This document shows, piece by piece, positions 23,033 to 39,348 of a stretch of DNA of 39,348 nt. Numbering within the stretch: position 1 is the first letter of the stretch; every line of letters starts with the position of its first letter. This DNA is from a virus: positions 1-39,348 of the IMG/VR virus record IMGVR_UViG_3300030116_004792; one strand, 5' to 3'. The notes under the pieces are model-generated. The model worked only from the letters and a program-made list of their open reading frames with translations. It did no database searches and was not told the DNA's origin. Position numbers and translations under genes: made by a program.

Positions 23033-23258
23033 ACGGATCCTTCGGAAATACCTGACAGCCTTCGACGTCGAACGGTAGCTGCTCCCAGCAATCGCACAGG
23101 CTGGCTACTTCAAACGCATCCTCTGCGCTCTTAGCCAGCACGACTGTCTGGTAGCCGCCTTTGGCCATGCCACCCCACTCTCCCAGAAAACCGGAAGGCA
23201 GCCGCACGACGTAAGGCTTTGGCTTAGCGACCTGCGAGCTGGATCCACTCTTCTGCAT
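23022..23258 (-). CDS. Small hypothetical protein overlapping the terminase 3' end, 78 aa
   Basis: Unknown. I choose the ATG at 23258 because a GGGA lies nine to twelve bases upstream and because the longer frame, to 23453, would run far into the terminase gene. The product starts MQKSGSSSQVAKPKPYVVRL and continues with GGYQTVVLAKSAEDAFEVASLCDCW, a compact alpha/beta pattern without recognisable motifs. It overlaps the terminase coding end by 35 bases and the next gene by 11 bases. Translation coupling through these overlaps is likely. Confidence 0.65.
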   Translation of the reverse strand: MQKSGSSSQVAKPKPYVVRLPSGFLGEWGGMAKGGYQTVVLAKSAEDAFEVASLCDCWEQLPFDVEGCQVFPKDPYAR

Positions 23259-24951
23259 CTGAGCGTCCCATCTGATCCAAGGGTATCCCCAATACCTTTG
23301 CATCCAACGCCCCTTGAATGTTTCCCATATACGCTTCCATTTCGAGGTCCCATAGCTCGGCCTGCCGCTCCTTAATTGCTCGATCTTCATCGATAGCCAG
23401 CGATTCATTCCAGTACTGAATAGCCCCCGCCAGGGCGTCGAGGCGGTCGTCATGCTGTAAGCAATTTCTTTCGACCGTAATATGCGTCAGTTGATGGAAC
23501 AACTGGTAGGCCAGTGCTGTTTCAATCGACTCGTCGTCCCTGCTGCGGCTGTCGCGCTCAATAACTGAGCGGTTGACCACTAGGCGGTGCTGGTTCATCA
23601 CCGGTTCCAGCGCATTGATGATGCGCCGCTCCTTCTGCATGTTGCTCCGCACCGGCTCAACCGTGCAGGGGTGGTACTTGCGCAGGAAGGGCTGCAGCAG
23701 GCTCTGCAGCATGCCCTGGCCAAACTGGTCCTCCAGCAGGATCAATGTCACCTGACGGCGCTTTGCGGCCTTTGCCAGGCCCTCTAGGACCTCGTCTGAG
23801 TAGCCATCGGTGTACGCACCAACCTCTAGGACGTACAGGTTGCCGTTGAGCTGGCCGACGATCGCGTAGGCCGTTTCGTCAGTGCCCTTGCCTGAGGGGT
23901 CAACAAACATGACGCAGCCATCTAGCTCTAACCAGTCGCCGTGGATAAACGCTGGCCGGTAGTAGTAGTCGCCGCTAAAGCCAACTGACGGCAGATCTGT
24001 GATGCGGTACTCGGCTCCTGCTGACCACACCACTTTTTCGGGGACGTGGTCGTCGACCTCCAGCACCATGAGGTCCGAGACACGCAGCGGAAAACGCTGC
24101 AAGTCAGACAGGGTGGTATCCAGCTGGAACTGCAGGGTGAACTGCGAGCGGCCGTAGGACGCTTCACGCTCCAGCAGGTCCAAGTCAGAAAACCTGCCGG
24201 GGTCTGTCGGCTTGTTTGGGCTGCTGTCACAGCCCTCCAGAATCATTGGCGCCAGGGCATCGCCGTACTTGGCCGGCCTTTCGGGATACCTAGCTGGCCA
24301 GATGCGGCAGTCGTAGCCGCGCATGCGCAGCTTGTTGTAGACGCTCTCCTCTGTCTGGGGCGTGCCCAGCATCATGATCTCGCCCCCTGGCTTCAGGATG
24401 GCGTTGAACTCACCAACGCAGGAAATCAGCTTCTCCCGCATGCCAACAGTCCAGCTGGTGTTCGGAACCTCGGTGTCATCAGCAAGAATCAGGTCGGCCC
24501 GGCTTCCGGTCAGCTGGCCAAAGACCCCTACTGACTTCACTGACGGACTCTGGTCCGGTATGGCGGGACGCACGTCAAAGCGATTGCTTGCACTGCGTTG
24601 GTCATCACGATCTGGATCCAGGCACTGGAGCAACGGCATCTCCCGAATCAACCGCAGGCAGAACTGCGCAAAGTCATCAGCCCGCACTTTGCTGGCTGAC
24701 ACCACCATGATCTTTTTCTGCGGGTCATTCCTCAGCAACCACAGCGTGTAAGCCGCAGCCATCCAGCTCTTACCCACACCACGGAACGCCTCGACGATCC
24801 GTCGCTTTGGCCCCTGCTGCATGTACTCCGCAATGTCCAGCTGCACTGGTGTCGGATCCGGCAACTGCAAATGCCGCCACACCACCACCAGGAAATACCG
24901 GAAGTCCTTGTCAAATGGTTCCGGCAGCGGCTGCCATGCCGTCTTCTTCAT
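23224..24951 (-). CDS. Terminase large subunit (gp19-like), 575 aa
   Basis: ATP-driven DNA packaging motor and nuclease. ATPase part: Walker A FRGVGKSW (K61) and Walker B LILADDTE (D158, D159, E161). RNase H-like nuclease part: FVDPSGKG with D351, E407 in LLEDQF, and the final acidic motif HDDRLDAL (D501, D502, D505). T7 gp19 is 586 aa. The ATG shares its A with the TAA of the small subunit (TAATG), so the two are translationally coupled. In T7 the terminase genes lie at the right end after the fibre; here they lead the structural block. Confidence 0.97.
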   Translation of the reverse strand: MKKTAWQPLPEPFDKDFRYFLVVVWRHLQLPDPTPVQLDIAEYMQQGPKRRIVEAFRGVGKSWMAAAYTLWLLRNDPQKKIMVVSASKVRADDFAQFCLRLIREMPLLQCLDPDRDDQRSASNRFDVRPAIPDQSPSVKSVGVFGQLTGSRADLILADDTEVPNTSWTVGMREKLISCVGEFNAILKPGGEIMMLGTPQTEESVYNKLRMRGYDCRIWPARYPERPAKYGDALAPMILEGCDSSPNKPTDPGRFSDLDLLEREASYGRSQFTLQFQLDTTLSDLQRFPLRVSDLMVLEVDDHVPEKVVWSAGAEYRITDLPSVGFSGDYYYRPAFIHGDWLELDGCVMFVDPSGKGTDETAYAIVGQLNGNLYVLEVGAYTDGYSDEVLEGLAKAAKRRQVTLILLEDQFGQGMLQSLLQPFLRKYHPCTVEPVRSNMQKERRIINALEPVMNQHRLVVNRSVIERDSRSRDDESIETALAYQLFHQLTHITVERNCLQHDDRLDALAGAIQYWNESLAIDEDRAIKERQAELWDLEMEAYMGNIQGALDAKVLGIPLDQMGRSDAEEWIQLAGR

Positions 24952-25178
24952 TAACTAACCCGCCGCTTGAAGCTCACCACGTTTTCAATATCAGGCAATG
25001 CCTTAGCCAAATCACCAAACGGTGTTCCTTCCGCAGGCTGAGCACTGATTTGATTGTCCTTCAAGAACTGCCGCAGCACATTCAATTCACTTGTGCTGAT
25101 CGTCCCCTCATCCAGCTTTTCTTTTAGGTGCTGCGCTAATCCCTCGTGCAATTCACTTAGTAAGTCCTGCAGCTCCAT
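24951..25178 (-). CDS. Terminase small subunit (gp18-like), 75 aa
   Basis: DNA-recognition subunit of the packaging motor. It has the helix pair typical of the T7-like cyanophage family: LQDLLSELHEGLAQHLKEKL followed by ISTSELNVLRQFLKDNQISA, then a loop with GTPFGDLAKALP and a basic end (FKRRVS). T7 gp18 is 89 aa. A GGGAGAAAG ribosome-binding site lies eight to sixteen bases before the ATG. It is the first gene of the leftward block, and a terminator-like hairpin lies 32 bases ahead of the ribosome-binding region. Confidence 0.9.
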   Translation of the reverse strand: MELQDLLSELHEGLAQHLKEKLDEGTISTSELNVLRQFLKDNQISAQPAEGTPFGDLAKALPDIENVVSFKRRVS

Positions 25179-26043: not shown

Positions 26044-26112
26044 ACCCAACACAGAGCCCTGCGGGGCTCTCTGGTGGTTTCACCACCAACACCCACCACA
26101 CGAGGTCTACCA
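26044..26112 (+). promoter_or_regulatory. Intergenic leader cassette: two hairpins, ACACCCACCAC, RBS
   Basis: AGAGCCC-TGCG-GGGCTCT (26053-26070) is followed by GGTGG-TTTCA-CCACC (26073-26087), then the 11-base motif at 26089-26099 and GAGG eight bases before the ATG at 26113. The same order recurs ahead of the gene at 26663. Confidence 0.72.
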
Positions 26113-26589
26113 ATGACCACAGCCACCACAGAGGCCAACCACGCCCTGGACAACGCCGCCGCCTGGAATGGCACGATCAGCGCCGCCCACGAGGCGTGGC
26201 TGTTTTGCCAGGAAGAGACGGAGGGCCGCGACCTAACGCAAGAGGCCAAGCTGTTGCTACATGAACACGGCTACGACGGCACCAACCACGCCGACGTTGC
26301 CGATTCCATCGAGTCGGAGAACCGAGACGCTGCCCTTAGCGTTGAGGTGCGGACCCGTTGGCATGTACCGGGCGAGCCAGCAGAGCCTGGCGATTACTGC
26401 ATCCTGTTGACTTGCGGCGGCCCTGCGCTCCGCATCACGGGCGAGCTACGCGGCTGGCCTGCTGTCGCTGTCGAGCCCTGCGGCTTTCAGCTGGAGTACC
26501 AAGACTGGGGCACGCCCTGGACCTGCTACACGGACGCCGACGCCGACGCCCTGGACTGGTTCACCGGCCTGTTCTACTACGGCGAATGA
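26113..26589 (+). CDS. Early hypothetical protein, 158 aa, with QDWGTPWT motif
   Basis: Unknown function. Residues 1-90 are helical and acidic (HEAWLFCQEETEGRDLTQEA; LLLHEHGYDG). Residues 95-158 contain YCILLTCGGPALRITGELRG, a segment ending QLEYQDWGTPWT, and the end WFTGLFYYGE. From memory, a domain of the form LLTWGGP.R..GEL...QDWGTPWT...FYFGE is common in phage and plasmid hypothetical proteins. The ATG at 26113 is supported by GAGG eight bases upstream. Its leader cassette suggests it can be expressed as a separate unit. Confidence 0.85.
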   Translation: MTTATTEANHALDNAAAWNGTISAAHEAWLFCQEETEGRDLTQEAKLLLHEHGYDGTNHADVADSIESENRDAALSVEVRTRWHVPGEPAEPGDYCILLTCGGPALRITGELRGWPAVAVEPCGFQLEYQDWGTPWTCYTDADADALDWFTGLFYYGE

Positions 26590-27109: not shown

Positions 27110-27526
27110 ATGGCCACACGAGGCCGACCCAAGAAGCCCGCCACCTATGCGGAGGCGCTTCAGACTGACAAGCAGATCAGAGACGCGGCTGAAGCCTTTA
27201 GCAACGCCCGCCGAGAGCTCACCGCGCAGCAGTGCAACATCTACGAGACGCAGTACAAGCTGCGGGCGGTATTCGAACAGCAGGAGATGATCGCCAAAGC
27301 GCTCGAACCTGTCGACCCACCGTCAGACGACGACGAGGAACGGATCTGCCAGCGCATGAATTACCTCATGGACAGAACCATGGAGCACATGGCCGAGCTT
27401 GCGAGTGAGCTGGCATGTGATTTCAATGCTGTGGCTATTGCAAAACAGCAGCTTGAAGCAGCTGCACAGGCGCGCAGCAAACGCTGTCAAGAATTGTCCG
27501 ACGCGTACACCAAGCAGTGCGACTGA
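27110..27526 (+). CDS. Early coiled-coil protein with AT-hook-like start, 138 aa
   Basis: Begins MATRGRPKKPATYAEALQTD; RGRPKK resembles an AT-hook, a DNA minor-groove binding motif. The rest is predicted to be long helices (AFSNARRELTAQQCNIYETQ; ELACDFNAVAIAKQQLEAAA) with an acidic loop (PPSDDDEERI). This suggests a helical oligomer that may bind DNA. A strong GGAGG precedes the ATG. No family recognised. Placement before the integrase and RNA polymerase would suit an early regulator, but that is inference. Confidence 0.8.
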   Translation: MATRGRPKKPATYAEALQTDKQIRDAAEAFSNARRELTAQQCNIYETQYKLRAVFEQQEMIAKALEPVDPPSDDDEERICQRMNYLMDRTMEHMAELASELACDFNAVAIAKQQLEAAAQARSKRCQELSDAYTKQCD

Positions 27527-27684: not shown

Positions 27685-27749
27685 TTGCGATTGCGTCACT
27701 GTTCGGCACCCACCTGCTCAAAAAAATCGAGGAACAGACCAATGACTAA
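27591..27749 (+). CDS. Small helical protein, 52 aa, unknown
   Basis: The product starts MDQKGPTTLQLQQIFRDWYK and continues with APDSQMIAIASLFGTHLLKK, an ordinary soluble helical composition. The start is uncertain because there is no clear ribosome-binding site; an in-frame ATG at 27558 would add eleven residues. The stop overlaps the next ATG region by eight bases, consistent with coupling to the gene at 27742. No family recognised. Confidence 0.6.
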   Translation: MDQKGPTTLQLQQIFRDWYKDTIGRAPDSQMIAIASLFGTHLLKKIEEQTND

Positions 27750-28059
27750 CGACTCACTGATTTACGACATCAACGACAAGCAACCAACAGCAGCGCACGC
27801 CAACAACCAGGGCCTGGTGCTGCTGTACGACCCCATCGGTAAGTGGATGAGCGGCTCATGGGACTGCGTGCAGTACCGCAAGGGCGTCACCCACTGGATG
27901 ATGCTGCCCGATGCGCCGCCGATCACACAGACGCGGGAAGAGTTGAACGAGCAGCGCTTTGAACAATGGCTGGCCGCTTACAGCCAGGGCAAACAGCTGA
28001 CCTACGAGCAGCAGACCATTGCCCACCAGGCCTTCCTGAAGGGAGCCAGCTATGTCTAG
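27742..28059 (+). CDS. Small DUF551-like protein, 105 aa
   Basis: Residues 1-20 (MTNDSLIYDINDKQPTAAHA) precede a central segment with LVLLYDPIGKWMSGSWDCVQ and VTHWMMLPDAPP, which resembles the phage DUF551 pattern (VL.YD....W......HWMPLPEPP). The C-terminal half is helical (ELNEQRFEQWLAAYSQGKQL). GAGGAAC provides a ribosome-binding site before the ATG at 27742. The 3' end overlaps the integrase start by eight bases. DUF551 proteins are common in phages; function unknown. Confidence 0.75.
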   Translation: MTNDSLIYDINDKQPTAAHANNQGLVLLYDPIGKWMSGSWDCVQYRKGVTHWMMLPDAPPITQTREELNEQRFEQWLAAYSQGKQLTYEQQTIAHQAFLKGASYV

Positions 28060-28951
28060 TTGGACGCTGCACGAGGCAGCCAAGGTCACGGAGCAAGTCC
28101 GCTACGCAGGCAGCGGCAACGAACGCAAGGCGCTGTGCAACATGCGCCTGGTGCTGGATCACTTCGGCCGCCAGGTCAAGCTTGACGACATCACAACCAG
28201 CACCGTCGACGCTTACATCCAGACGCTGAAGGACAGCGGCAACGCACCCGCCACCATCAACAAAAAACTGGCGGTGTTGAAGGCCATTTACACGGACGCC
28301 ATGCGCCGTGATGGTTGCAGCAAGCGGCCGCACATCCCGACCATGAAGGTGACATCGTCCCGGCTGCGCTTTATGTCAGTCGAGGAGGAAGACGCACTAA
28401 TCAACTGGTGCTGCACCGAGAACGAGCTGCAAGTATGCGAGGCGTTGATCGTCTTAATCGACACCGGCATGCGTGTCGGCGAGCTGTTCCGTGTCATCCC
28501 TGCCGACGTGGACATGGAGCAGAACATCATCAGTGTTTGGAAGAACAAGGCAGACAAGCCCAGGTCAGTGCCCATGACCGACCGTGTGCGGCAGATCGTC
28601 GGCCGTCGCATCAAGCGGCGCAACCTGACCGGCTCAGTGTTCAACAGTTTGGAGCGGGGCCACCTGGAATATGTGTGGGACTGCGCCAGGTGTGACCTGG
28701 GTTGGGAAGACGACAAGCACTGGGTCTTGCACATGCTGCGGCACACCTGCGCCAGCCGACTGGTGCAGCGTGGCGTCGATCTGTATGTGGTGAAGGAGAT
28801 CCTGGGCCACAAGAGCATCACCGTTACGGAGCAGTACGCACACCTCGCCAACCCACAGCTCAGAGATGCCATCGCCAAGCTCAACAAGGTCGACAGCAGA
28901 CCAGCTGGAACTAGAGCGGGAGATGCTTACGCTCGGGCGGGATCGCGTTGA
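28052..28951 (+). CDS. int: Tyrosine recombinase / integrase, 299 aa
   Basis: Site-specific recombinase with an intact catalytic set: R141 (TGMRVGELF), K166 (NKADKPRSVP), H227 and R230 (HMLRHT), H253 (LGHKS) and the nucleophile Y262 (EQYAHL). Residues 1-95 form the SAM-like core-binding domain (TSTVDAYIQTLKDSGNAPAT). Ribosome-binding site AAGGGAG lies six bases before the ATG. A cysteine pair at CARC near residue 210 is unusual within the domain. Some T7-like marine cyanophages carry an integrase directly upstream of RNA polymerase, and this arrangement matches. I found no repressor and no tRNA-derived attachment site, so lysogeny is not established. The 3' end overlaps the RNA polymerase gene by 86 bases. 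Confidence 0.95.
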   Translation: MSSWTLHEAAKVTEQVRYAGSGNERKALCNMRLVLDHFGRQVKLDDITTSTVDAYIQTLKDSGNAPATINKKLAVLKAIYTDAMRRDGCSKRPHIPTMKVTSSRLRFMSVEEEDALINWCCTENELQVCEALIVLIDTGMRVGELFRVIPADVDMEQNIISVWKNKADKPRSVPMTDRVRQIVGRRIKRRNLTGSVFNSLERGHLEYVWDCARCDLGWEDDKHWVLHMLRHTCASRLVQRGVDLYVVKEILGHKSITVTEQYAHLANPQLRDAIAKLNKVDSRPAGTRAGDAYARAGSR

Positions 28952-31250
28952 GTTGATCGCTAACCGCCACCGCAAGGGGCGAATGGAATCACTCAGCACA
29001 TGGGGTGAAGCACTGACAGCAGCGGGGGTGGATCAGCTAGTGATCCACCTTCGTGCTGTTCGGCGCCGCATACAGGCAGGCAAGGCGGGCCAAGCGTTCG
29101 CCCTGCTTGCACCCGTGACACACCTTCCACCCCAGCAGGTCGCTGCAACTGCCGTGCGGGTGGTAGTGGACAGCATCAGTGCCTGCAACACGCTGCACCA
29201 TGTCGCAGCGGAGGTCGCCGAGAAGCTGTGGATCGAGACCATGCTCGATCGAGCAAGCGCACAAGAGCTGCGCACGTTCAGACGTGGCCGCAGCAGGCGC
29301 AAGCACCAGGTCGCTGCGATCAGTCACATGCAACGGACAGAGCATTGGCATCCCCGTGAGCGCATGGCCTCGGGTGTGTTCTTAGTTGAACTGATAGCCA
29401 AGGAAGTTGGCATCGTCGAGATCACCGTCGACCGCAGCTACAAGCCACCACGCAGGGTGGTGGTGCCAACTGACCAGTGCATGGCATGGGTGCAAGACGT
29501 GAAGCAGCAACAGAAGCTGATGACGCCCAGCTACCTGCCCATGCTGGTGCCGCCACGGCCATGGACGTCACCGCTGAGCGGGGGCTACCTGACTGACAGC
29601 ATCCCGTTAGTGCTGATGAAATCCAACGCAGAGCTGGTGGCACAGCACACCAAGGGAGACGAGCCGTACCTGCAAGCTGCCAACCTGCACCAGGCCGTGG
29701 CCTGGCAGGTCAATGGCTGGATGCTGGAGCAGGTGCTGCATGCCTACGACAACAGCATCGAGGTGGGTTGTCTTATGCCACGGGAAGGGTGGCCGGTGCC
29801 GCCGTACCCCAAGCACCTGCCGGAAGACAGCGAAGGCGTGCGCAAGTGGCGCATGCAGGCCCGCCGCATCCACGAAAAAAACGACAAAACCAAGACAGCG
29901 CGTATTGCCATTGCCAAATGCTTGTGGGTGGCGAAGCGTTTTGTCGGCGAGCAACGGCTGCACTTCCCCATGTCGCTCGATTTCAGGGGGCGCTACTACT
30001 ACCGCCCGCCGTACCTCAACCCCCAAGGCAACGACGTCAGCCGCTGTCTGCTGGTGTTCAGCGACGGCCAGCCCATCACAACAGAGGAGCAGGCCAACTG
30101 GCTGCGAGTGCATGGGGCAAACATGTATGGGCACGGTGGGCTCGACTTCCGTGCGCGCATTGACTGGGTGCATCAGGAAGCAGAGCGCATAGGGGCAGCT
30201 GCTGCTGACCCGTGGCAGCACGCTGAATTCTGGATGCGTGCCAAGAAGCCGTGGTCTTTCCTTGCTTTCTGCCGCAGCTACGCCGAGTTCATGCAGCAGG
30301 GCTACGGCTACGCCTGCCAACTGCCAACCATGCTGGACTGCACATGCTCAGGCATCCAGCACTACAGCGGCCTGCTGCTGGACGAGGGCATGGGCAAGCT
30401 AACCAATTTGCTGCCGTCTGACACACCGCAGGACATCTACAGCGCAGTAATTGACCGAGTGCTGCAGGTGCTGCGCAGCAATGGCGACGAGGACGCACGC
30501 AAATGGCTGAAGCTGCAGCCCGACAGGTCGCTGGCAAAGCCAGTGGTGATGTGCCTGCCTTACTCCGCTACGCACAGCGCCTTCTATTTTCATTGCTACG
30601 ACTGGGCAGTCGAGCGCACGCAGGAATTATTCAGCGGCAAGTCCTGGGCCACACGCAAGGGGGCAGTGCAGACCGTGCATTACATGGCGCGCATCCTGCA
30701 CAAAGAAGCATCGGCACTGATTGGGCCAGCTGAGCAGGCCATGAAGTGGTTCCGTGCCATCGGCAAGGCAGCCGGCAAGGCCGACATCCCGCTGCAATGG
30801 CGCACACCAAGCGGGCTGCTGGTGCAGCAGCAGTACATGGCAGACCACGTCAAGCGCATCCGACTGAAGTACCTGTCGGACGTCAGGCTCGACATCAAGA
30901 TCAAGGTTGACGACGAGGTAGAGCTGGATGGCAGGCGCATGGCTAACGCACTGTCGCCAAACGTCTTGCACTCCATGGATGCCAGCCACATGGCGCTGGC
31001 AAGCATTGACGCAGCAAGCAAGGGCGTGGTCAACTTGGCCGGCGTTCATGACTGTTTCGTCACAACGCCTGCAGAGATGACACAACTACGCAACTCTGTA
31101 CGAGCAGCGTTTGCTGCGCTTTATTCAGAGCGCTGGTTCGATCGCATATCGGATCAGCTCCTCACACACACACAGGTTGAGCTGTCACGGCCACAAGCTG
31201 GGCAGCTCGATCCTTCTCTCGTGAAATCTTCCGACTACTTCATCACATGA
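28866..31250 (+). CDS. T7-like single-subunit RNA polymerase, 794 aa
   Basis: Transcribes phage genes from phage promoters. Catalytic residues are preserved: D491 in MLDCTCSGIQH (T7 D537), K558 and Y566 in AKPVVMCLPYS (T7 K631 and Y639), and D729 in HDCFVTTP (T7 D812). LDFRGRYYYRPPYLNPQGND and SDTPQDIYSAV also match. T7 RNAP is 883 aa; the missing length is mostly N-terminal. I keep the ATG at 28866 because DQLELERE at residues 12-19 matches the T7 segment EQLALEHE. Starts at 28923 or 28983 would remove part of this, although 28983 has a better AGGGG ribosome-binding site. The gene overlaps integrase in another frame, and its stop overlaps the SSB ATG (ATGA). Confidence 0.96.
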   Translation: MPSPSSTRSTADQLELEREMLTLGRDRVELIANRHRKGRMESLSTWGEALTAAGVDQLVIHLRAVRRRIQAGKAGQAFALLAPVTHLPPQQVAATAVRVVVDSISACNTLHHVAAEVAEKLWIETMLDRASAQELRTFRRGRSRRKHQVAAISHMQRTEHWHPRERMASGVFLVELIAKEVGIVEITVDRSYKPPRRVVVPTDQCMAWVQDVKQQQKLMTPSYLPMLVPPRPWTSPLSGGYLTDSIPLVLMKSNAELVAQHTKGDEPYLQAANLHQAVAWQVNGWMLEQVLHAYDNSIEVGCLMPREGWPVPPYPKHLPEDSEGVRKWRMQARRIHEKNDKTKTARIAIAKCLWVAKRFVGEQRLHFPMSLDFRGRYYYRPPYLNPQGNDVSRCLLVFSDGQPITTEEQANWLRVHGANMYGHGGLDFRARIDWVHQEAERIGAAAADPWQHAEFWMRAKKPWSFLAFCRSYAEFMQQGYGYACQLPTMLDCTCSGIQHYSGLLLDEGMGKLTNLLPSDTPQDIYSAVIDRVLQVLRSNGDEDARKWLKLQPDRSLAKPVVMCLPYSATHSAFYFHCYDWAVERTQELFSGKSWATRKGAVQTVHYMARILHKEASALIGPAEQAMKWFRAIGKAAGKADIPLQWRTPSGLLVQQQYMADHVKRIRLKYLSDVRLDIKIKVDDEVELDGRRMANALSPNVLHSMDASHMALASIDAASKGVVNLAGVHDCFVTTPAEMTQLRNSVRAAFAALYSERWFDRISDQLLTHTQVELSRPQAGQLDPSLVKSSDYFIT

Positions 31251-31867
31251 AACCTCAGAAGTTTGACTCCCTGACTCTGACCACACCGCCTTGCCGTCTC
31301 ACCTACGCCTGGCTGGTTGAACCCGACACCAAGTACCCACCTGCTGTTTACAAGGTCACAGCACACGTCCCCGCTGAGCAGGCTGCAGAGATTGCTGAAC
31401 AGCTGGACGCGTACTACGCCTCATACATGCAGCACCTCGGCGGCAGCGCACCTGGCACCAAGCTGCAGCTGAACGACAAGCCATACAAATTTGAGAACGA
31501 CGACCAGGGCCGTGCCGTCTTCTCAATCAAGATGAAGCGCACTGCCAACGGCGTGCGCACAGACGGCACCACATGGTCAGCCGAGGTTGCGCTGTTTGAC
31601 AGCCAAGGCAAGCCCATCGGCAACCGTGATGCTCTGAAGAAAATGGGGCCAGAGACAACAGGCCGCCTCAACTTTGCAGTGTCTGGCTACACGGGAGGCA
31701 AGGGCACTGGCGTTACATGCAAGGTTCTGGGCGCGCAGATCCTGGAGTTTGTGCAGTACACCAGAGGGGCGACCAGCTTTGGCTTCCAAGCAGAAACCAC
31801 CGGGTTCAAGGCGGGCGACATCACGGAAACGGACGAGCCGGCAACAGAAGAAGCAGGTAACTGGTAG
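31247..31867 (+). CDS. Single-stranded DNA-binding protein (gp2.5-like), 206 aa
   Basis: Coats ssDNA during replication and recombination. It has an OB-fold pattern typical of T7 gp2.5 (232 aa): AWLVEPDTKYPPAVYKVTAH near the start, DDQGRAVFSIKMKR near residue 85-97, and GVTCKVLGAQILEFVQY near 150-170. The C terminus is acidic and ends with an aromatic residue (ITETDEPATEEAGNW), the tail that in T7 contacts DNA polymerase and helicase. The ATG overlaps the RNA polymerase stop (ATGA). Confidence 0.92.
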   Translation: MKPQKFDSLTLTTPPCRLTYAWLVEPDTKYPPAVYKVTAHVPAEQAAEIAEQLDAYYASYMQHLGGSAPGTKLQLNDKPYKFENDDQGRAVFSIKMKRTANGVRTDGTTWSAEVALFDSQGKPIGNRDALKKMGPETTGRLNFAVSGYTGGKGTGVTCKVLGAQILEFVQYTRGATSFGFQAETTGFKAGDITETDEPATEEAGNW

Positions 31868-32246
31868 GTATCGCAGCAAGTTTGAGGCGAATGTTGCCTC
31901 TAGCTTGGACAAGCGTGGCCTGGTGTTTCAGTACGAGACCCAGGCCCTGCCTTACCGCATCGAAGCTGTCTATACGCCTGACTTCATCCTGCCCACCTGT
32001 GTGGTGGAGACAAAGGGGCTGTTCAGTGCAACTGACAGGCGCAAGATGCTTGCCGTAAAGGCTGCGCATCCACATGTCGACATTCGCCTGTGTTTCCAGA
32101 ACGCCAAGGTCAAGCTCAGCCGTGCCCCCAGGTCACTGACTTACGGGCAATGGGCCGATCGCCATGGCTTCGTCTGGTGCGAGGGCCACATACCCACCGC
32201 TTGGTTCGATGAAGGAACGACGCAAGTCAAAGTTTGTCAAACATGA
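31779..32246 (+). CDS. Endonuclease I / Holliday-junction resolvase (gp3-like), about 155 aa, TTG start
   Basis: Cuts branched DNA and in T7 degrades host DNA. The catalytic set is present: E in RSKFEANV, D in YTPDFILP, and E and K in VVETKGLF, matching T7 E20, D55, E65 and K67. SLTYGQWADRHGF and HIPTAWF match the T7 C terminus. The start is not an ATG: the only upstream ATG, at 31674, is deep in SSB and gives unrelated sequence. I propose TTG at 31779, with GAGGGG nine to ten bases upstream, giving a length close to T7 gp3 (149 aa) and an 89-base overlap with the SSB gene. Confidence 0.87.
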   Translation: MASKQKPPGSRRATSRKRTSRQQKKQVTGRYRSKFEANVASSLDKRGLVFQYETQALPYRIEAVYTPDFILPTCVVETKGLFSATDRRKMLAVKAAHPHVDIRLCFQNAKVKLSRAPRSLTYGQWADRHGFVWCEGHIPTAWFDEGTTQVKVCQT

Positions 32247-33834
32247 GCCGTGCCCACAGTGCGGCAGTAAGGACAACGCAGCACGCTTTGATGACGGGCA
32301 TCTGTACTGCTACAGCTGCGACGCCGTCATTGAAAAGAGCCCGTCGCCTGAGCGGCTGCCTAAATACAAACCCTCACCCCCGCCAAAAGTGGAGCTGCTC
32401 GAATTTGTAAAGCCATTGGCCCTCGAAGCAAGGGGCCTGACGTTAGACACCACAACCAAGTTTGATTACGGCGTGACCAGCCACCACGGTGAGCTGGTGC
32501 AAGTCGCAACCTACCGGGATCAGCTGGGCAAAAGGACAGCGCAGCACCTGCGGTACAAGGACAAGCGCTTCCGCTGGATAGGACAAACGTCTGGGCTGCA
32601 GCTGTTTGGTCAGCACCTGTGGCGACAGAACCATGGCAACGGGACAAACATGTTTTGTGTTGTCACCGAGGGCGAGATTGACTGCATGTCAGTGTCACAA
32701 GTGCAGGGCAATAAGTTCCCTGTGGTGTCACTGCCCAACGGTGCATCGTCTGCTCGTAAATACTTGGCCGCAAACTTGCAGTGGTTGAGTCAATTCAACC
32801 GCATTGTTTTGTGCTTTGATTCGGATGAGCCGGGTATCAATGCAGCCGAGGATGCAATGCAAGTTTTGCCGCCAGGAAAGGCAGCGATCTGCAGGCTGCC
32901 ACGTAAAGATGCCAACGAAATGTTGGTCGCAGGTGAGGGTGAACACCTGAAGGATTTGCTGTGGAAGGCCACACCCGTCAGGCCTGACAGCATTAAGAAC
33001 GCATCAGAGCTGTGGGATGTGCTGGTTAAGCCAGGCGCATCAGCCATCTGCCAGTACCCATGGCCCAAGCTCAACGCTGCTGCTCATGGTTTCCGCAAGG
33101 GCGAGATGGTGACGCTGGCAGCAGGCAGTGGTGCAGGCAAGAGCTCTATCTGCCGTGAGTGGATCGTCCACTTCTTGCGGGCAGGGTTAAAGGTCGGCGT
33201 GTTCATGCTGGAGGAGAGCATGCAGCGCTCACTGCAGGGCATCGTGGGCGTCGACATCAACATGCCCATTCACCTGGACCCAGAGCTGGTTAGCGATCCA
33301 AAGGTGCGCACTGCCTTTGACGAGCTAATGAGCACCGGCAACCTGTTTCTCTACGACCACTTTGGAAGCATGGACCCCGACCGCCTGGTCGAGCAGATCA
33401 AATACCTGGCGACGTCAGAGGGTGTCGACGTTGTAGTTGTCGACCACCTCACCATTGTCGTCAGCGGCATTGCTGATCTCGATGAACGGCGTGCCTTGGA
33501 CGTGACATGCACCAAGCTGCGGCAGGTGGTGGAGCAGACAGGCGTTGGCCTGGTGCTGGTGTCCCACCTGAAGCGGCCCGAAGGCCGCGGCCACGAAGAG
33601 GGTGGGCAGACAAGCCTGTCGCAACTCAGGGGAAGCCACGCCATAGCCCAGCTTTCGGACCTTTGCATAGGCGCAGAGCGCAACCAGCAGGGCAGCGATG
33701 AAGAGCGCAACAAGCTGCAGCTGCGCATGCTCAAGAACAGGTTCTCCGGCGAGACAGGACCGCTGGATGAGCTGGTGTTTGATCGCAAGACAGGGCGCCT
33801 GACTGTTCCAATGTCCAGCTACTTCGGGTTATGA
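32209..33834 (+). CDS. Primase-helicase (gp4-like), 541 aa, lacking the acidic C-tail
   Basis: Synthesises primers and unwinds DNA. Zinc ribbon C15, C18, C34, C37 (CPQC, CYSC); TOPRIM motifs VVTEGEID (E154) and FDSDEPG (D204, D206); RecA-like helicase with Walker A GSGAGKSS (K311), LEES, Walker B VVVDHL (D412), and RGSHAIAQLSD. T7 gp4 is 566 aa. The T7 protein continues past its final SSY segment with about 18 acidic residues ending in Phe, which dock on DNA polymerase; here the protein stops at SSYFGL. The start could instead be the ATG at 32164. I prefer 32209 because it limits overlap with the conserved endonuclease end. The stop overlaps the exonuclease ATG (ATGA). Confidence 0.95.
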   Translation: MKERRKSKFVKHEPCPQCGSKDNAARFDDGHLYCYSCDAVIEKSPSPERLPKYKPSPPPKVELLEFVKPLALEARGLTLDTTTKFDYGVTSHHGELVQVATYRDQLGKRTAQHLRYKDKRFRWIGQTSGLQLFGQHLWRQNHGNGTNMFCVVTEGEIDCMSVSQVQGNKFPVVSLPNGASSARKYLAANLQWLSQFNRIVLCFDSDEPGINAAEDAMQVLPPGKAAICRLPRKDANEMLVAGEGEHLKDLLWKATPVRPDSIKNASELWDVLVKPGASAICQYPWPKLNAAAHGFRKGEMVTLAAGSGAGKSSICREWIVHFLRAGLKVGVFMLEESMQRSLQGIVGVDINMPIHLDPELVSDPKVRTAFDELMSTGNLFLYDHFGSMDPDRLVEQIKYLATSEGVDVVVVDHLTIVVSGIADLDERRALDVTCTKLRQVVEQTGVGLVLVSHLKRPEGRGHEEGGQTSLSQLRGSHAIAQLSDLCIGAERNQQGSDEERNKLQLRMLKNRFSGETGPLDELVFDRKTGRLTVPMSSYFGL

Positions 33835-34574
33835 CTCTTCTCTGCGACGGCGACTGGCTCAATTACGTCGGCTGCACTGCCAACGAGCAGGACATCCGAT
33901 GGACGGAGACGGTGCATACCTTGCACCTTGACGAAGGTGACGTGAAGAACACGATTGTCACCATGCTCGATGGCTACCGGGCCATTGCTGACGACGACGA
34001 CGTGATGATCTGCTTCAGCAGTTACCCCACGTTTCGGCACGAAGAGTTCCCTGACTACAAAGCCAACCGCCTGGGCAAGCGCAAGCCGCTGGGTCTGTCT
34101 GCCATGCGCCAATGGATGACTGACAACTACCCGACTGTGGTCAAACCAATGCTTGAAGCCGATGACTGCATGGGCCTGCTTGCCACCGATGGCAGCGTGC
34201 CTGACCCGGTAATCGTGTCGATCGACAAGGACATGCGGACCGTGCCATGCCGCCTGCTTGCCAACCAAGAGGTAGAAACCATCAGCGCCATGGATGCTGA
34301 CCGTGCATGGATGGCACAGGCATTGACCGGCGACAGCACCGATGGGTACAAGGGCGTCAAAGGCGTTGGCCCAGTGGGTGCCAACAAAATCCTGGGCGAC
34401 TTGGTCACTGTGCAGGAGATGTGGCCAAAGGTGGTTGGCGCATACCTGAAGGCAGGGCTGCAAACAGCAGACGCTATACGCACAGCAAGGCTGGCCCGCA
34501 TCTTGCGAGCCGGTGACTACGACGAGCAGGCTCGCAGCGTCAGGCTTTGGGTGCCTCCAACAGCGCCTGCTTGA
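33831..34574 (+). CDS. 5'-3' exonuclease (gp6-like, FEN/PIN family), 247 aa
   Basis: Removes RNA primers and in T7 helps degrade host DNA. Metal-binding aspartates occur in CDGDWL (D6, D8), LEADDCMG and SIDKDMRT, and the DNA-binding helix-three-turn-helix appears as GDSTDGYKGVKGVGPVGA. The ending ARILRAGDYDEQARSVRLW matches the T7 gp6 ending ARILRFNEY...IYLW. T7 gp6 is 300 aa; this one has a shorter start. It begins inside the helicase stop codon. In T7 the DNA polymerase gene 5 lies between these two genes; none is present here. The last 35 bases overlap a leftward 55-aa gene. Confidence 0.94.
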   Translation: MTLLCDGDWLNYVGCTANEQDIRWTETVHTLHLDEGDVKNTIVTMLDGYRAIADDDDVMICFSSYPTFRHEEFPDYKANRLGKRKPLGLSAMRQWMTDNYPTVVKPMLEADDCMGLLATDGSVPDPVIVSIDKDMRTVPCRLLANQEVETISAMDADRAWMAQALTGDSTDGYKGVKGVGPVGANKILGDLVTVQEMWPKVVGAYLKAGLQTADAIRTARLARILRAGDYDEQARSVRLWVPPTAPA

Positions 34575-34751: not shown

Positions 34752-35006
34752 ATGGCAAACAACGACACCGAACACAACGGTGGCATTTTGTCTGACCTAA
34801 TCCGCATCATTGTTCTGGCCTGGTCTTTGGCGTGCCTTAGCCTCAGCTACCTGGGTCAGGTCAAAGCCATGGATCCCACATTCGCCGCCTCCATGCTTAC
34901 AGCGGTGTTGAGTTCCTATGGGGTGAGTGTTGGTAAGACCAACGGCAAAAAAGACGACAGCAATAAGCTAGACGTAAGCAAGACCACGCCACCTGCTAAG
35001 CCATGA
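34752..35006 (+). CDS. Small membrane protein, holin candidate, 84 aa
   Basis: Starts MANNDTEHNGGILSDLIRII, giving a membrane segment at about residues 13-36 (LIRIIVLAWSLACLSLSYLG), a short loop MDPTF, and a second weaker hydrophobic segment at 44-60 (AASMLTAVLSSYGVSVG), then a charged Lys/Asp/Pro tail. Two membrane segments with a charged end fit a class II holin, and similar cyanophage proteins are familiar to me, but none is proven a holin. No Shine-Dalgarno is evident. The stop overlaps the next ATG (ATGA). Confidence 0.78.
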   Translation: MANNDTEHNGGILSDLIRIIVLAWSLACLSLSYLGQVKAMDPTFAASMLTAVLSSYGVSVGKTNGKKDDSNKLDVSKTTPPAKP

Positions 35007-35365
35007 AGATCCAATGGCTACTGATCGCAGCCCTAGCGCCCGCTCCAGCGTTGGCCAACACAGTCACACCGACGTGGTCGACTGGCAGCATGCAGAGCAC
35101 GACCACCACGACGCAGACAATCGAGGAGACGATTGTTCAGAAGATCTACGGCTCCGAAATGCAATCGTGGTCTGGCGAGAACGTGACGCCCAGCGCAGCC
35201 GACATTACGGGCGCCAGCACAACATGGGATCTGACGACCGATGGCGATGCGTTCACTTTCGAGTACACAACTCGGGACGCCGACACATTGATCGAGCAGA
35301 TCGACATCGACCGCACGATCGAAACCGACTCCACCACTACGTCGCTCAGTGTGTTCTCGCAGTGA
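35003..35365 (+). CDS. Secreted-type protein, 120 aa, unknown
   Basis: Has a signal peptide (MKIQWLLIAALAPAPALANT, cleavage after ALA) followed by a Thr/Ser-rich mature part: TVTPTWSTGSMQSTTTTTQT, EETIVQKIYGSEM, and a predicted beta-rich end with TWDLTTDGDAFTFEYTTRD. No lipobox cysteine, so it is not an outer-membrane spanin-type lipoprotein. It probably goes to the periplasm or is part of the virion surface. Coupled to both neighbours (ATGA before, TGATG after). From memory, comparable T-rich secreted proteins accompany the next gene in cyanophages. Confidence 0.75.
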   Translation: MKIQWLLIAALAPAPALANTVTPTWSTGSMQSTTTTTQTIEETIVQKIYGSEMQSWSGENVTPSAADITGASTTWDLTTDGDAFTFEYTTRDADTLIEQIDIDRTIETDSTTTSLSVFSQ

Positions 35366-36081
35366 TGTTGGCGGCACCTGCCGCTGCCGAGACAACTAAC
35401 AACTCGGCGCCCAGGGCCCAGGCCACAAGCAACAACACCAACCAATCAGTCCAGTTCAACAACAACGGTGCGCCCAGCCGGCAGCACTTTGGCGGCAACG
35501 TCAGCTGCAATGGTCCCACTCTGGTCGTCACCCCTTTTCACCTAGAGGCGCACGCTGATCCATATCCATCAGAGGATTACACCCGTGCGCAAAACTTCGG
35601 CGCGCAACTCAGCATCAACGTTCCGCTGGATGGGTCAATTACCGAAATGTGCAAGGCCATGGTGCGGCGAAAGTTGGCAGCACAGCAGCAGCAGATAGAA
35701 AAGGAGAAACTCGACTACCACCTTGTAAGGGCTCTTAAGTGCGCTGAGCTTTACAAGACGGGCTTTATGCTGCATCCAGACTCAACGCTTGGGGCTACTC
35801 TCTGTTCCGACGTAGTCTCAATCGACGTCTACCGAAAGTCTCAAGGTCTTTCCCCCGTAGCTTTGCCAGCTTCTTCAGCGCCGTCTGAAACGCAGGCTTC
35901 AGTACCTTCACGAGATTCTGCGCAGCAAGCGTTGCCCCGACAGAAGCCGCTGCCGCCACTGCCGCCGTCGTTGCAGCCACAGTCACCACCTCAGGAGTCG
36001 GCAACGCAAACTCCAGAGACGTCCCCGGCACAGTCACCGTCGGTTGCTGAACCTCAACCTTCTCGATCACAGGCGGATTGA
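35365..36081 (+). CDS. Secreted-type cyanophage protein with antisense-encoded tail, about 238 aa
   Basis: The core (about residues 45-150) contains NVSCNGPTLVVTPFHLEAHA, YTRAQNFGAQLSINVPLDGS, ITEMCKAMVRRKLA and LVRALKCAELYKTGFMLHPD, which I recall as a cyanophage family of secreted proteins. The ATG at 35365 follows the previous gene as TGATG, but it leaves only MLAAPAAAE of a signal peptide. Codons upstream in the same frame (YVAQCVLAV) would complete a proper hydrophobic core but offer no ATG, so a non-ATG start such as GTG at 35362 or further up is possible. The final 95 residues are Pro/Ser/Gln-rich and lie antisense to the gene at 35795-36343. Function unknown. Confidence 0.72.
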   Translation: MLAAPAAAETTNNSAPRAQATSNNTNQSVQFNNNGAPSRQHFGGNVSCNGPTLVVTPFHLEAHADPYPSEDYTRAQNFGAQLSINVPLDGSITEMCKAMVRRKLAAQQQQIEKEKLDYHLVRALKCAELYKTGFMLHPDSTLGATLCSDVVSIDVYRKSQGLSPVALPASSAPSETQASVPSRDSAQQALPRQKPLPPLPPSLQPQSPPQESATQTPETSPAQSPSVAEPQPSRSQAD

Positions 36082-36343
36082 CCAGCAAGTCGATCGTTTC
36101 TTGCTGCGCCTGAATGTTTTCGTTTAGCTGCTCGATCTGTTTCTGCAGCGCCTTGGCAGCATCGCGTGCGCTTTGGTCGACACCTTGCGGTGGCTTTGGC
36201 GGTTTAGGCGGCTTTTTTGGTGGAACGCTGGGCGGGATTAGCAGCGGGTGAGAGGGAGCCGGAAAGACCGGCTCCTCGATTGATGGCCTTGGAAGTTCAA
36301 TAGACCCAGGCAGCTGTATGGATGGCAGCTGCAGTGGGTCCAC
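35795..36343 (-). CDS. Proline-rich membrane protein, cyanophage-type, 182 aa
   Basis: N-terminal Pro-rich part (LPSIQLPGSIELPRPSIEEP; PSVPPKKPPKPPKPP), a helical stretch (AAKALQKQIEQLNENIQAQQ), a membrane segment at about 120-142 (VVTVAATTAAVAAAASVGAT), and a basic C terminus (KKLAKLRGKDLETFGRRRLR). I recall this architecture, Pro-rich then VATASVSSVGATLAA then KLAK.RGK, from many cyanophages, so the frame is probably real even though 287 bases overlap a rightward gene. It starts three bases after the stop of the porin-like gene, as part of the leftward block. Function unknown. Confidence 0.8.
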   Translation of the reverse strand: MDPLQLPSIQLPGSIELPRPSIEEPVFPAPSHPLLIPPSVPPKKPPKPPKPPQGVDQSARDAAKALQKQIEQLNENIQAQQETIDLLVNPPVIEKVEVQQPTVTVPGTSLEFALPTPEVVTVAATTAAVAAAASVGATLAAQNLVKVLKPAFQTALKKLAKLRGKDLETFGRRRLRLRRNRE

Positions 36344-36346
36344 CTA

Positions 36347-36709
36347 TCAGAAGTCGATGACTGCGCCAGTCTTGACGTAGCTGCCGGTGTCAGAACCGTC
36401 GAACTTGCTAAAGCCCGCCTCGGCATAGAGGCTGGTTGCGTCGTCGACCTGGCCGGAGAGGCCAGCCTTGCCTGACCAGCCCCAGTCAGTGCTGCTGGTG
36501 TCGTTGCTCATGGCAGGGCCAGCCTGGATGAAGAAGGGGCCGTCCTTGTAGCCAACGTGCAGGTCAAGGCTGCTGCCGCTGCTGCTGCTGCCGCTGAATC
36601 CGGTCACGAATTCTGGGTTCGCATACATCTTGCCCTCTGCCTTCGCAGACGGGCTGCCCAATGCAAACGCCGTGGCGACGACAGAAGCAGCAATCAGGAG
36701 ACGCTTCAT
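36347..36709 (-). CDS. Small porin-like outer-membrane protein, 120 aa
   Basis: Signal peptide MKRLLIAASVVATAFALGSP with cleavage near KAE, then alternating beta strands: MYANPEFVTGF, SLDLHVGYKDGPFFIQAGPA, WSGKAGLSGQVDD, SLYAEAGFSKF, and a terminal aromatic AVIDF typical of outer-membrane beta barrels. From memory, such proteins (NPEF..G..G, LHVGYE, GPA) recur in cyanophages close to tail-fibre genes. About eight strands would fit 100 mature residues. It could change the surface of the infected cell or be a virion decoration. Confidence 0.8.
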   Translation of the reverse strand: MKRLLIAASVVATAFALGSPSAKAEGKMYANPEFVTGFSGSSSSGSSLDLHVGYKDGPFFIQAGPAMSNDTSSTDWGWSGKAGLSGQVDDATSLYAEAGFSKFDGSDTGSYVKTGAVIDF

Positions 36710-36748
36710 GGTTATTGGAAGAAAACACGCAGACGTTAGTAGAACTAC

Positions 36749-37051
36749 TTACCAAGGCACACCCGTGCCAGTGGTAGGAGTGGCCTGCTCTGTCAGCTGT
36801 GCCTCTAGGGCAGCGTTGACTTCCGCAACCTTGTCTTCGCCCAGGGCGGATTTAACCCAGCCCACCACTGTTGCCTCGTCAAGGTCGGCATACGGAGTAG
36901 TTACGTCGCCTTCAAGAGCAAGCTCGCCGTAGGCGCCAGCGGAATACACCTCGTCGTCAGATCGTGCATCAACTGCGTAATGCACAGAATCGACGCGGCC
37001 GGTGCTGAGTGTGCGGGAAAGCGTGTTCACTTTCCAGGTAATGGTGGACAT
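36749..37051 (-). CDS. Small cyanophage-type protein, 100 aa (DUF7936-like)
   Basis: Starts MSTITWKVNTLSRTLSTGRV, followed by DSVHYAVDARSDDEVYSAGA, YGELALEGDVTTPYADLDEA, TVVGWVKSALGE and the end TPTTGTGVPW. I recall this pattern (TW.V..L.R, HY...A.....YSAGAYG, PYADLTEETVIGWVK, TGLPW) from proteins next to tail-fibre genes in T4-like cyanophages. The name DUF7936 is from memory and not checked. Probable virion-associated or fibre-assembly role, inferred from neighbours. It lies 28 bases after the second fibre gene. Confidence 0.8.
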   Translation of the reverse strand: MSTITWKVNTLSRTLSTGRVDSVHYAVDARSDDEVYSAGAYGELALEGDVTTPYADLDEATVVGWVKSALGEDKVAEVNAALEAQLTEQATPTTGTGVPW

Positions 37052-37079
37052 GAGAAAAAAGCAATGGGGTCAGAGTAAT

Positions 37080-39092
37080 TCAAGCCGCAGCTTCCAGTGC
37101 TGCAACCTTAGTTTCAAGGGTTTCAATTTTGACTATTGCTTCTTGCAATGCGGCGGTCAACAGTGGCACAAGCTTTGATTGATCGATGCCTTGCATTACA
37201 GCGTTGCCGTCCTCATCAACTTCGTTGTGCGTTCCAGTAACAGCTTCAGGAACAACAGCTTGCGCTTCGTGTGCAAGAAAACCATCAACTGTCGTATTAG
37301 CATCAGCGATAAAGTTAAAACGTTTGGGCGCTAGTTGCTTGACGCGAATAATAGCGTTAGCAATGTCAACGACGTTTTCTTTAAGACGGTAATCAGAGGA
37401 AGTGTTATACGTAGTAGAACTGCTATTAACAGTAATAGTGCCTACAAGACTACCACTTCTTCTGAACTCAAAAAGTGTTCCATCGCTATTTCTATTCGCA
37501 AAATAAGCAGGCCCATCTGCCCTAGAGATAAATAACGCACCACCATTTGTACCGAGATGTTCATAAGCGCCACCTACTACTGTGTTAGTTAAGCCAGGTA
37601 CATGTGTTGTACTCGGAGCAAACAGGATGTGACCATTGGAATTAATCCGCAGCCGCGTGTTAGAACTATCAGTATTAAAAGCAAGCGTATTGGCAGCAGG
37701 TGCATGTATGTTTGCACCACCAGTATTAAATGTAATCTTAGGGTTGGCCGCACTAAGTAATACATTGCCAGTAACGTCGAGTTTTGCTCCAGGACTGGAT
37801 GACCCCACGCCCAAGTTTCCAGCCGAGTCCAATCTCATTCTCTCTGTTCCACCATTAGTGTGGAACTGCATTGCGTTAGTGGAGTGCACATACGCAATCA
37901 TGCCAGTGTCTTCATCATCAGTGTCGCCAAAATTGACGTGAGACGATGCAGCGTTACCACTAATAATCGAAATCTTAGAAGTAGATCCAGACGCAGAACT
38001 TCTTTGGAATACAGCAACAGTTTGTTCTGCATTTGTTATCTGTGTTCCTGACTTAATGGCGTGCAAAGTACCGTCAGATTTAATGCGTAGGCGCTCAGTC
38101 GGGCTGCTTGCATTGTCGGCTGTTGTATGGAACTCAAGCCTTGTCGGATAGTCATCAGCTGCGTGCGCTCCATCTGCAACACATTGAACAATGCCAACAT
38201 CGTTGTAACCAGATGGATCGTTTGCATAAAAACGCAAACCACCAATGCCATTACCATCGGCAACGGAAGAATCGTTACGCGCTAAACCGACATATCCACC
38301 ACCACTTGCAACGCCTTGAATAAGAGTGGTGCTTAAGCCACCGCTAAACTCGCTAGTCGTCCCTACCAGCAACCGCCCAGCGTTGTCGATAGTTACATCT
38401 TCAACCAAGGTCGTGCCGTTGTAACGGCCGAAACGTGTTGGGATATAACTAGATCCACCGTCAGAAATAAATCTTGCCGCACCGCCTTGACAGTTAATAT
38501 TTACTTTATCGTCACCGGCACTACGGTAAACAGCTAAACCATTATCAACAGCGCTGGAATCGTTGTTAGAAAAAACGCTTAATTTTTCAGTAGGCGATGT
38601 CATCCCGACGCCAATATTTCCATTGGTGTCAATTCTCATCGACTCTTGATTTGATCTTGAGAAAAATCGAATATCTCGGTTCGTAGTTGTAGACCGGCTT
38701 GCAACAATATCCAGCTCATAGCTACCACTTGTTGCTTTATCAATGTAGCCGGCCGCTGCAGCAGAACTAAAATCACCAAAATAGATTTTGCCATCGTTTC
38801 CGATGCGCATCCGCTCAGCGTTATTGGTAAAAAACCTTGTTGGGTGATTTGAGAAAGTGTAAATATCAAATGTAGAATTATTATTATTTACTCCAACAAA
38901 GCCTGTTACTGTTCCATTGCTTTGGCGGATATAGGCATCAGCTCCAGAAGTAACAATGTCAAGAGGTTGCGCAGGCGCCGCCGTCCCGATTCCAACCCGG
39001 TTGTTAGTGCCGTCAACCTTTAGAGTATTACTGTCGATGTTGATGTTTTCATCGACGCCGCCAGTGGTGACTTGAGTAAGTGTCATGGTCAT
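37080..39092 (-). CDS. Second tail fibre/spike with S74 intramolecular chaperone, 670 aa
   Basis: Host-contact protein ending in a Peptidase_S74 (endosialidase-type) chaperone domain, residues 566-670: SDYRLKENV with S566 and D567 at the self-cleavage site, then VKQLAPKRFNF, FLAHEAQAVVPEAVTG, DQSKLVPLLTAALQEAI, and a C-terminal coiled coil. In the family the domain helps trimer folding and then cuts itself off. The upstream 565 residues contain many repeats of cyanophage shaft motifs (NNRVGIGTAAP, GRLLVGTTS, RLRIKSDG, GNLGVGSSSP). The ATG overlaps the stop of the 83-aa gene. There is no T7 gp17 N-terminal domain, so it is attached in another way than the 1216-aa fibre. Confidence 0.93.
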   Translation of the reverse strand: MTMTLTQVTTGGVDENINIDSNTLKVDGTNNRVGIGTAAPAQPLDIVTSGADAYIRQSNGTVTGFVGVNNNNSTFDIYTFSNHPTRFFTNNAERMRIGNDGKIYFGDFSSAAAAGYIDKATSGSYELDIVASRSTTTNRDIRFFSRSNQESMRIDTNGNIGVGMTSPTEKLSVFSNNDSSAVDNGLAVYRSAGDDKVNINCQGGAARFISDGGSSYIPTRFGRYNGTTLVEDVTIDNAGRLLVGTTSEFSGGLSTTLIQGVASGGGYVGLARNDSSVADGNGIGGLRFYANDPSGYNDVGIVQCVADGAHAADDYPTRLEFHTTADNASSPTERLRIKSDGTLHAIKSGTQITNAEQTVAVFQRSSASGSTSKISIISGNAASSHVNFGDTDDEDTGMIAYVHSTNAMQFHTNGGTERMRLDSAGNLGVGSSSPGAKLDVTGNVLLSAANPKITFNTGGANIHAPAANTLAFNTDSSNTRLRINSNGHILFAPSTTHVPGLTNTVVGGAYEHLGTNGGALFISRADGPAYFANRNSDGTLFEFRRSGSLVGTITVNSSSTTYNTSSDYRLKENVVDIANAIIRVKQLAPKRFNFIADANTTVDGFLAHEAQAVVPEAVTGTHNEVDEDGNAVMQGIDQSKLVPLLTAALQEAIVKIETLETKVAALEAAA

Positions 39093-39340
39093 TCACCAGG
39101 GGTAGAGGAAGCAACGCTGGCCTGATAAGCAGAGATTACCTCGGCTGTCCACAAAGCTGCTGCAATGTCTTGCACCTCCTGGACCTCGCCGCTTACGTCG
39201 TCACCAGGGCAGACAACGTGGCGGTGGTGGTTGCGTGCCAGCTCAACGCCATCCTCTTCAACCACAGTAGTGGTGCGGATTTGAATGACCTGATTAGGCA
39301 GGATTTCTTCTTTGTATTCAAGTCGTTTTGTAATAGCCAT
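39089..39340 (-). CDS. Small fibre-associated cyanophage-type protein, 83 aa
   Basis: Starts MAITKRLEYKEEILPNQVIQ, then RTTTVVEEDGVELARNHHRH and VVCPGDDVSGEVQEVQDIAA, and ends VISAYQASVASSTPGE. From memory, proteins of the form MAITKTLEFKEEVLP......I.EDGVE..R.FHRHV..PGDD occur directly before tail-fibre genes in cyanophages, probably as fibre adaptor or assembly proteins. The gene's ribosome-binding site lies across the contig junction, visible at 101-105. Its stop overlaps the second fibre's ATG. Confidence 0.85.
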   Translation of the reverse strand: MAITKRLEYKEEILPNQVIQIRTTTVVEEDGVELARNHHRHVVCPGDDVSGEVQEVQDIAAALWTAEVISAYQASVASSTPGE

Positions 39341-39348
39341 TAAGAACG
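39250..39348. repeat. Terminal direct repeat, right copy (identical to 1-99)
   Basis: Exact copy of the first 99 bases. It ends within the leader of the 83-aa gene. Either an assembly overlap in a circular graph or part of a terminal redundancy; the sequence alone cannot decide. Confidence 0.97.

Follow-up and report, generated by a model that had tools for sequence, protein, structure and literature searches.

Introduction

The four-protein replisome of bacteriophage T7 is a textbook model of DNA replication. In T7, the negatively charged C-terminal tails of the helicase contact positive patches on gp5, the DNA polymerase, and their removal lowers processivity threefold (PMC8472574) and abolishes the cooperative loading of helicase and polymerase (PMC8835902). 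Among marine cyanopodoviruses, 18 MPP-C isolates have been described that carry no DNA polymerase gene (Cai et al., ISME J 2022; PMC9860041). These phages infect Prochlorococcus MED4, have genomes of 37.3–37.9 kb without auxiliary metabolic genes and follow a T7-like left-to-right gene order. Three options were offered for their replicase: Pol I or Pol III of the host, or a polymerase hidden in the phage genome (PMC9860041).

Here, we analyze a viral DNA of 39,348 nucleotides, IMG/VR record IMGVR_UViG_3300030116_004792 (the whole stretch is referred to as the window), for which inspection of the sequence had led to the prediction that the polymerase was lost and that the loss might already have been described from MPP-C. 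It had indeed been described (PMC9860041), and the window is a new, divergent member of this published lineage, which we refer to as extended MPP-C. As far as literature searches show, two findings add to the published work: the helicase tail was lost along with the polymerase, and the clade is broad.

Results

The coordinates of the features discussed are collected in Table 1. The two ends of the record share an exact 99-bp repeat, which makes truncation unlikely. Repeats of this kind usually indicate that a circular assembly was closed where k-mers overlap, the alternative being an assembly break induced by a repeat; closed at this point, the circle has a unique length of 39,249 bp. The repeat is located in the tail-fibre region and the P-SCSP1u genome ends elsewhere, so that it is probably not a packaged terminal repeat. 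Taken together with a single-subunit RNA polymerase (RNAP) and T7-like virion genes, the hallmarks of Autographiviridae, we consider the window an essentially complete T7-like cyanophage genome.

Table 1. Features of the window (positions from its first letter; strand as + or -, a dot where neither applies).
Feature	Position	Strand	Evidence or remark
Exact terminal repeat, copy 1	1-99	.	Identical to 39250-39348
Structural block (portal, scaffold, capsid, tail tubes, internal proteins, fibre)	119-23032	-	Inverted relative to P-SCSP1u
gp16-like protein, 2529 aa	3772-11361	-	phrog_21 over residues 356-741
Small conserved ORF before portal	22850-23032	-	Edge of inverted block
Terminase large subunit (terL)	23224-24951	-	phrog_38
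Terminase small subunit	24951-25178	-	phrog_891
Tyrosine integrase	28052-28951	+	PF00589 (5.9e-26); overlaps RNAP start
T7-type single-subunit RNAP	28866-31250	+	phrog_414, PF00940
gp2.5-type SSB	31247-31867	+	phrog_112; acidic C-terminal tail EEAGNW
Endonuclease I (Holliday junction resolvase)	31674-32246	+	PF05367 (8.5e-32)
gp4-type primase-helicase (Zn ribbon, Toprim, RecA-like)	32164-33834	+	phrog_239 (1.7e-170)
ATGA overlap, primase-helicase stop and exonuclease start	33831-33834	+	Site of gene 5 in T7-like phages
gp6-type 5´-3´ exonuclease	33831-34574	+	phrog_107 (1.2e-58), PF02739
DUF6450 protein and two overlapping reading frames (phrog_848/1755)	34752-36081	+	Other edge of inversion
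Exact terminal repeat, copy 2	39250-39348	.	Identical to 1-99

The replication module reads integrase, RNAP, SSB, endonuclease I, gp4, gp6, and the actual start of endonuclease I is probably internal to the frame listed. The predicted ATGA overlap of helicase stop and exonuclease start is present in the sequence and recurs in P-SCSP1u, in Jalkavirus S08C159 and in four contigs (L002, L006, L008 and L009), of which L002 and L008 are near-identical. Six of the 12 polymerase-less records in the comparison encode an integrase, and no tRNA-like attachment site was found in the window: ARAGORN, used in search of an attP or a clue to the host, returned no tRNA, and matches to a T-arm pattern, sought as attP or tRNA fragments, were at chance level.

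The inversion of the structural block extends through 34752–39348 and covers a total of approximately 27 kb, from the small ORF before the portal gene to DUF6450. In P-SCSP1u, the DUF6450 and phrog_848/1755 region is on the minus strand beside terL, whereas it is on the plus strand in the window. As a consequence of the inversion, the structural genes run with the terminase and away from the replication genes, giving the genome two divergent arms. The same arrangement is seen in a close relative (G001) and in a more distant one (G007; gp4 67% identical). By eye, two motifs are seen in the gp16-like protein, one ParB-like (VNGHNRLDAA) and one zincin-like (HEAFH), resembling the large polyvalent proteins that are ejected with phage DNA.

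The GC content of the window is 55%, and its tail-fibre DNA is 83–95% identical to that of S-SBP1, a phage of Synechococcus WH7803. Based on these two observations, the host is probably a marine Synechococcus. At the start of the tail fibre (1–125 and 39250–39348), DNA of 95% identity is found in S-SBP1 and in two Mediterranean fosmids; the S-SBP1 genome is otherwise unrelated to the window, which suggests a recent exchange of the fibre. A host search in genome contigs gave no match beyond distant prophages and an unclassified MAG (TMED161). The TMED161 contigs (L324 and L327) encode helicases 52–53% identical to that of the window and are probably phage contigs in the MAG bin.

The best matches to the RNAP are the 17 P-SCSP1 isolates, at 58% identity, with everything else at 31% or below, and the helicase is 57% identical to that of an MPP-C isolate. 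This bears out the suspected relationship to MPP-C, given that the paper on these isolates reports no DNA polymerase (PMC9860041). Like MPP-C, the window has no DNA polymerase gene, and in trees of gp4 and gp6, two of the nine core genes, it falls with P-SCSP1 and P-SCSP2, apart from MPP-A, MPP-B and P-RSP2. None of the auxiliary genes psbA, hli, mazG, rnr, talC and thyX was found among the scanned ORFs of the window, as in the published MPP-C. The window departs from the published description in its size, 39,249 bp against a range that describes the isolates and does not define the group, and in its inverted structural block in place of the left-to-right order, a departure seen also in G001 and G007. 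In the gp4 tree, it lies outside a subgroup uniting P-SCSP1u and P-SCSP2, and in the RNAP tree it is placed beside P-SCSP1u. This conflict in the position of P-SCSP1u, which groups with P-SCSP2-type phages in gp4 and with the window in RNAP, suggests recombination between the RNAP and the replication module within the lineage.

The predicted absence of a DNA polymerase was confirmed by Pfam models of families A, B and C: DNA_pol_A, DNA_pol3_alpha and DNA_pol_B had no match in the record and matched the control genomes. DNA_pol_B_2 had no match in the record either, and none in its control. A custom Pol A profile, derived from phage polymerases and searched against all six frames with filters off and E up to 10, found all positive controls and gave no match in the window or in 80 relatives. 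NCBIfam models named “DNA polymerase I” match the exonuclease over positions 39–215 of 889; we rejected it as a polymerase because the match is confined to the 5´-3´ exonuclease domain of the model. The further claim that all space of more than 1 kb is held by identifiable genes stands for the assignment of the ORFs above 1 kb (terL, portal, major capsid protein (MCP), tail tubes, gp15- and gp16-like proteins and fibres) and is weaker for the gp16-like protein, which is assigned mainly by its position. The early ORFs without assignment at 25.5–28.05 kb encode at most 171 aa. In a comparison of 12 records, into which P-SCSP2 entered in part only, RNAP, SSB, endonuclease, gp4, gp6, a 60-aa ORF and virion genes were common to all, and no polymerase-sized protein without assignment was common to the clade. 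The ORFs at 26074–26589, 27110–27526 and 27685–28059 were present in five, two and nine of the 12, respectively.

To place the window in a wider context, helicase-centred loci were gathered from viral contigs, starting from four queries (the window, P-SCSP2, CRP-125 and a Votkovvirus). A locus was scored as polymerase-less when the exonuclease lies within 1.6 kb of the helicase and no polymerase is present. The 295 loci with a usable helicase comprise 152 polymerase-less and 104 polymerase-bearing ones and 39 that are cut off too early. PF00476 is absent from 22 longer polymerase-less virus records of 23.7–40.6 kb (15 of 15 and 7 of 7) and from both polymerase-less isolates, and present in all 10 polymerase-bearing records. 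The GC content of the helicase gene ranges from 35 to 65% among polymerase-less loci, which makes hosts beyond Prochlorococcus likely. In 115 of the 152, gp4 and gp6 are separated by 5 nt or less, and the abutting junction occurs in every main subclade. The remaining gaps (e.g. approximately 245 nt in L065 and L067) are occupied by small genes, which frequently encode an NrdR-like zinc ribbon; ThyX-like or HNH-like ORFs are seen in some. NrdR-like ORFs of 65–90 aa are found in many high-GC polymerase-less relatives (among others L016:2464-2670, L065:4287-4529, L017, L022 and L029). ThyX-like ORFs, judged by eye from their translations, occur in L034 (from 8350 onward), L015 and L024, in contrast to the published MPP-C, described as being without auxiliary metabolic genes.

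In trees rooted with T7 as the outgroup, a choice on which the direction of change depends, the polymerase-less phages form a single clade. For non-redundant helicases (58 polymerase-less and 62 polymerase-bearing), the clade has a support of 1.0, and in IQ-TREE it is recovered at 100/100 and in 200 of 200 bootstraps with one change; support is 1.0 in the exonuclease tree and 0.996 in the SSB tree. No polymerase-bearing phage falls inside the clade in any of the three, and one loss is therefore the simplest history. Polymerase-bearing relatives carry gene 5 at the site that matches the gp4/gp6 junction of the window. We infer a single loss of gene 5, placed on the stem branch of the polymerase-less clade. 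The position of this clade among polymerase-bearing T7-like phages supports the earlier claim of a loss over primitive absence, and the exonuclease and SSB trees agree with the helicase tree. The RNAP was rejected as a test of single origin: FastTree gave two polymerase-less clades, a better model unites them with weak support, and this gene neither supports nor contradicts one loss. The candidate sister, L158/L159, carries a polymerase and a tailed helicase, at a support of 81/94 only. A single cyanophage clade, with MPP-A/B as sister to the polymerase-less phages, is compatible with the data (AU p 0.27).

The primase-helicase of the window lacks the acidic C-terminal tail and ends in TGRLTVPMSSYFGL. 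When tails were measured after the TGRL anchor in the same 58 and 62 helicases, an acidic, Phe-ending tail was found in none of the polymerase-less against 45 of the polymerase-bearing phages. Polymerase-less tails are 7–13 aa long with a net charge of -3 to +1, and none ends in an acidic or small residue followed by an aromatic one. Polymerase-bearing tails have a median length of 16 aa and a median charge of -4, and 48 of the 62 end in Phe; that of L158 ends in DF. The short C-termini read PMSxYFG in the relatives of the window and VYExxFGD in the P-SCSP2 group. The tails of the SSB are still acidic, with an aromatic end in 48 of 48 polymerase-less phages. Since tail loss and polymerase loss fall on the same branch, they constitute one co-occurrence rather than 58, and a rank test on the tails has descriptive value only. 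Short helicase tails are also present in the polymerase-bearing HTVC119P, S28C10, L190 and L194, pelagiphages among them, showing that the tail is not strictly needed with a polymerase.

Discussion

We propose that the window is an extended MPP-C genome, that gene 5 was lost once in its ancestry and that a host polymerase copies its DNA, a combined reading to which we assign a probability of about 0.85. The use of a host polymerase, also part of the earlier prediction, is strongly inferred. A single deletion, beginning at the 3´ end of gene 4 and extending to where gene 6 starts, could perhaps have removed the docking tail together with gene 5, and the spacer genes in the gp4–gp6 gap of other members would be later additions. 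In replication, transcripts made by the phage RNAP would prime DNA synthesis, the SSB would coat the strands, and the gp4-type helicase would unwind and prime. A host DNA polymerase, recruited by the primase-helicase and the SSB, would carry out the copying, and the exonuclease would remove primers and host DNA.

Provided that a host enzyme is used, we lean slightly towards Pol III with its clamp as the replicase, with Pol I as a less likely but substantial contender. This preference is only moderate and has two grounds: the helicase no longer has its arm for gripping a gp5-like family A enzyme, and the clamp is a possible source of processivity. A β-clamp-binding motif was considered as the link to host Pol III and rejected, as no such motif is conserved across the group in gp4, gp6 or SSB, and no phage-encoded sliding clamp was found in 14 records. 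That Pol I alone replaces gp5 is rather unlikely overall, but it is the alternative that survives best. Gp4-type helicases elsewhere pair with family A enzymes, as Twinkle does with Pol gamma, which counts for Pol I. Gp5 and Pol I are both members of family A, and Pol I is among the options given by Cai et al.; against this, the processivity of cellular Pol I is low, and it is through the lost tail that a family A polymerase is contacted. More speculative still is that the short helicase C-terminus is a new docking element for the host replicative polymerase. If true, this would be a rewired replisome in which a gp4-type helicase works with Pol III.

A phage-encoded polymerase too divergent for the profiles, the third hypothesis of Cai et al., is very improbable. 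The early ORFs and, as the foremost candidate, the gp16-like protein are poorly annotated and leave some room for it. The early ORFs are patchy across the 12 records, though, the proteins common to all are assigned, and the gp16-like protein lies within the late virion module; moreover, the search with filters off gave no match and the helicase has no arm left to hold a T7-type polymerase. Even less probable is a primitive absence of gene 5 from the lineage, with a gain by the polymerase-bearing phages: the direction depends on the root of the tree, but when T7 serves as the outgroup, the clade lies within polymerase-bearing phages, in which gene 5 occupies this site. Finally, a gene 5 collapsed in assembly or residing in missing sequence can practically be set aside, for although a 99-bp end repeat can mark an assembly break, the record closes into a circle, the 22 longer polymerase-less records are without PF00476, and the identical junction recurs in sequenced isolates and independent contigs, with the ATGA of P-SCSP1u (an isolate), Jalkavirus S08C159, L002 and L008 arguing against collapse.

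A large and globally abundant lineage functions without the central enzyme of the T7 replisome, and among the three published options the genomic evidence makes a hidden polymerase unlikely. The lineage, so far represented by Prochlorococcus isolates, now also includes phages of high GC, and surveys based on polymerase genes overlook all of its polymerase-less members. The loss of the helicase tail is a concrete clue to DNA copying by a host enzyme in such viruses. With the SSB tail kept, it constitutes a specific molecular footprint that turns the question of the replicase into a direct binding test.

Among described phages, the closest are the Prochlorococcus phages P-SCSP1a-u of MPP-C (OM416763-OM416779). 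They likewise have no DNA polymerase and share with the window an identical RNAP-SSB-endonuclease-gp4-gp6 order, the ATGA junction and a minus-strand terminase adjacent to the early genes, with identities of 58% (RNAP), 57% (gp4) and 78% (MCP). The window differs in its GC content (55% against approximately 39%), in its 39.25 kb with an integrase and in the inverted structural block. P-SCSP2 also encodes an integrase and has no polymerase between gp4 and gp6, which are 2 nt apart; in the Mediterranean metagenomic contig Jalkavirus S08C159, the two genes overlap at ATGA, again without a polymerase. Both are more distant, with gp4 only 50–52% identical to that of the window and, for P-SCSP2, RNAP at 27%. 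MPP-A, MPP-B and P-RSP2 (Syn5, P-SSP7, P-RSP2) resemble the window in their T7-like replication module and picocyanobacterial hosts, but all have a DNA polymerase and their gp4 falls in a separate clade. The Autographiviridae of Roseobacter and Pelagibacter (CRP-125, HTVC119P, Votkovvirus) share the gene order of the window and, at 46–47%, have the helicases most identical to it among annotated polymerase-bearing phages; in these, a polymerase is present and gp4 and gp6 are separated by 2.4–2.9 kb.
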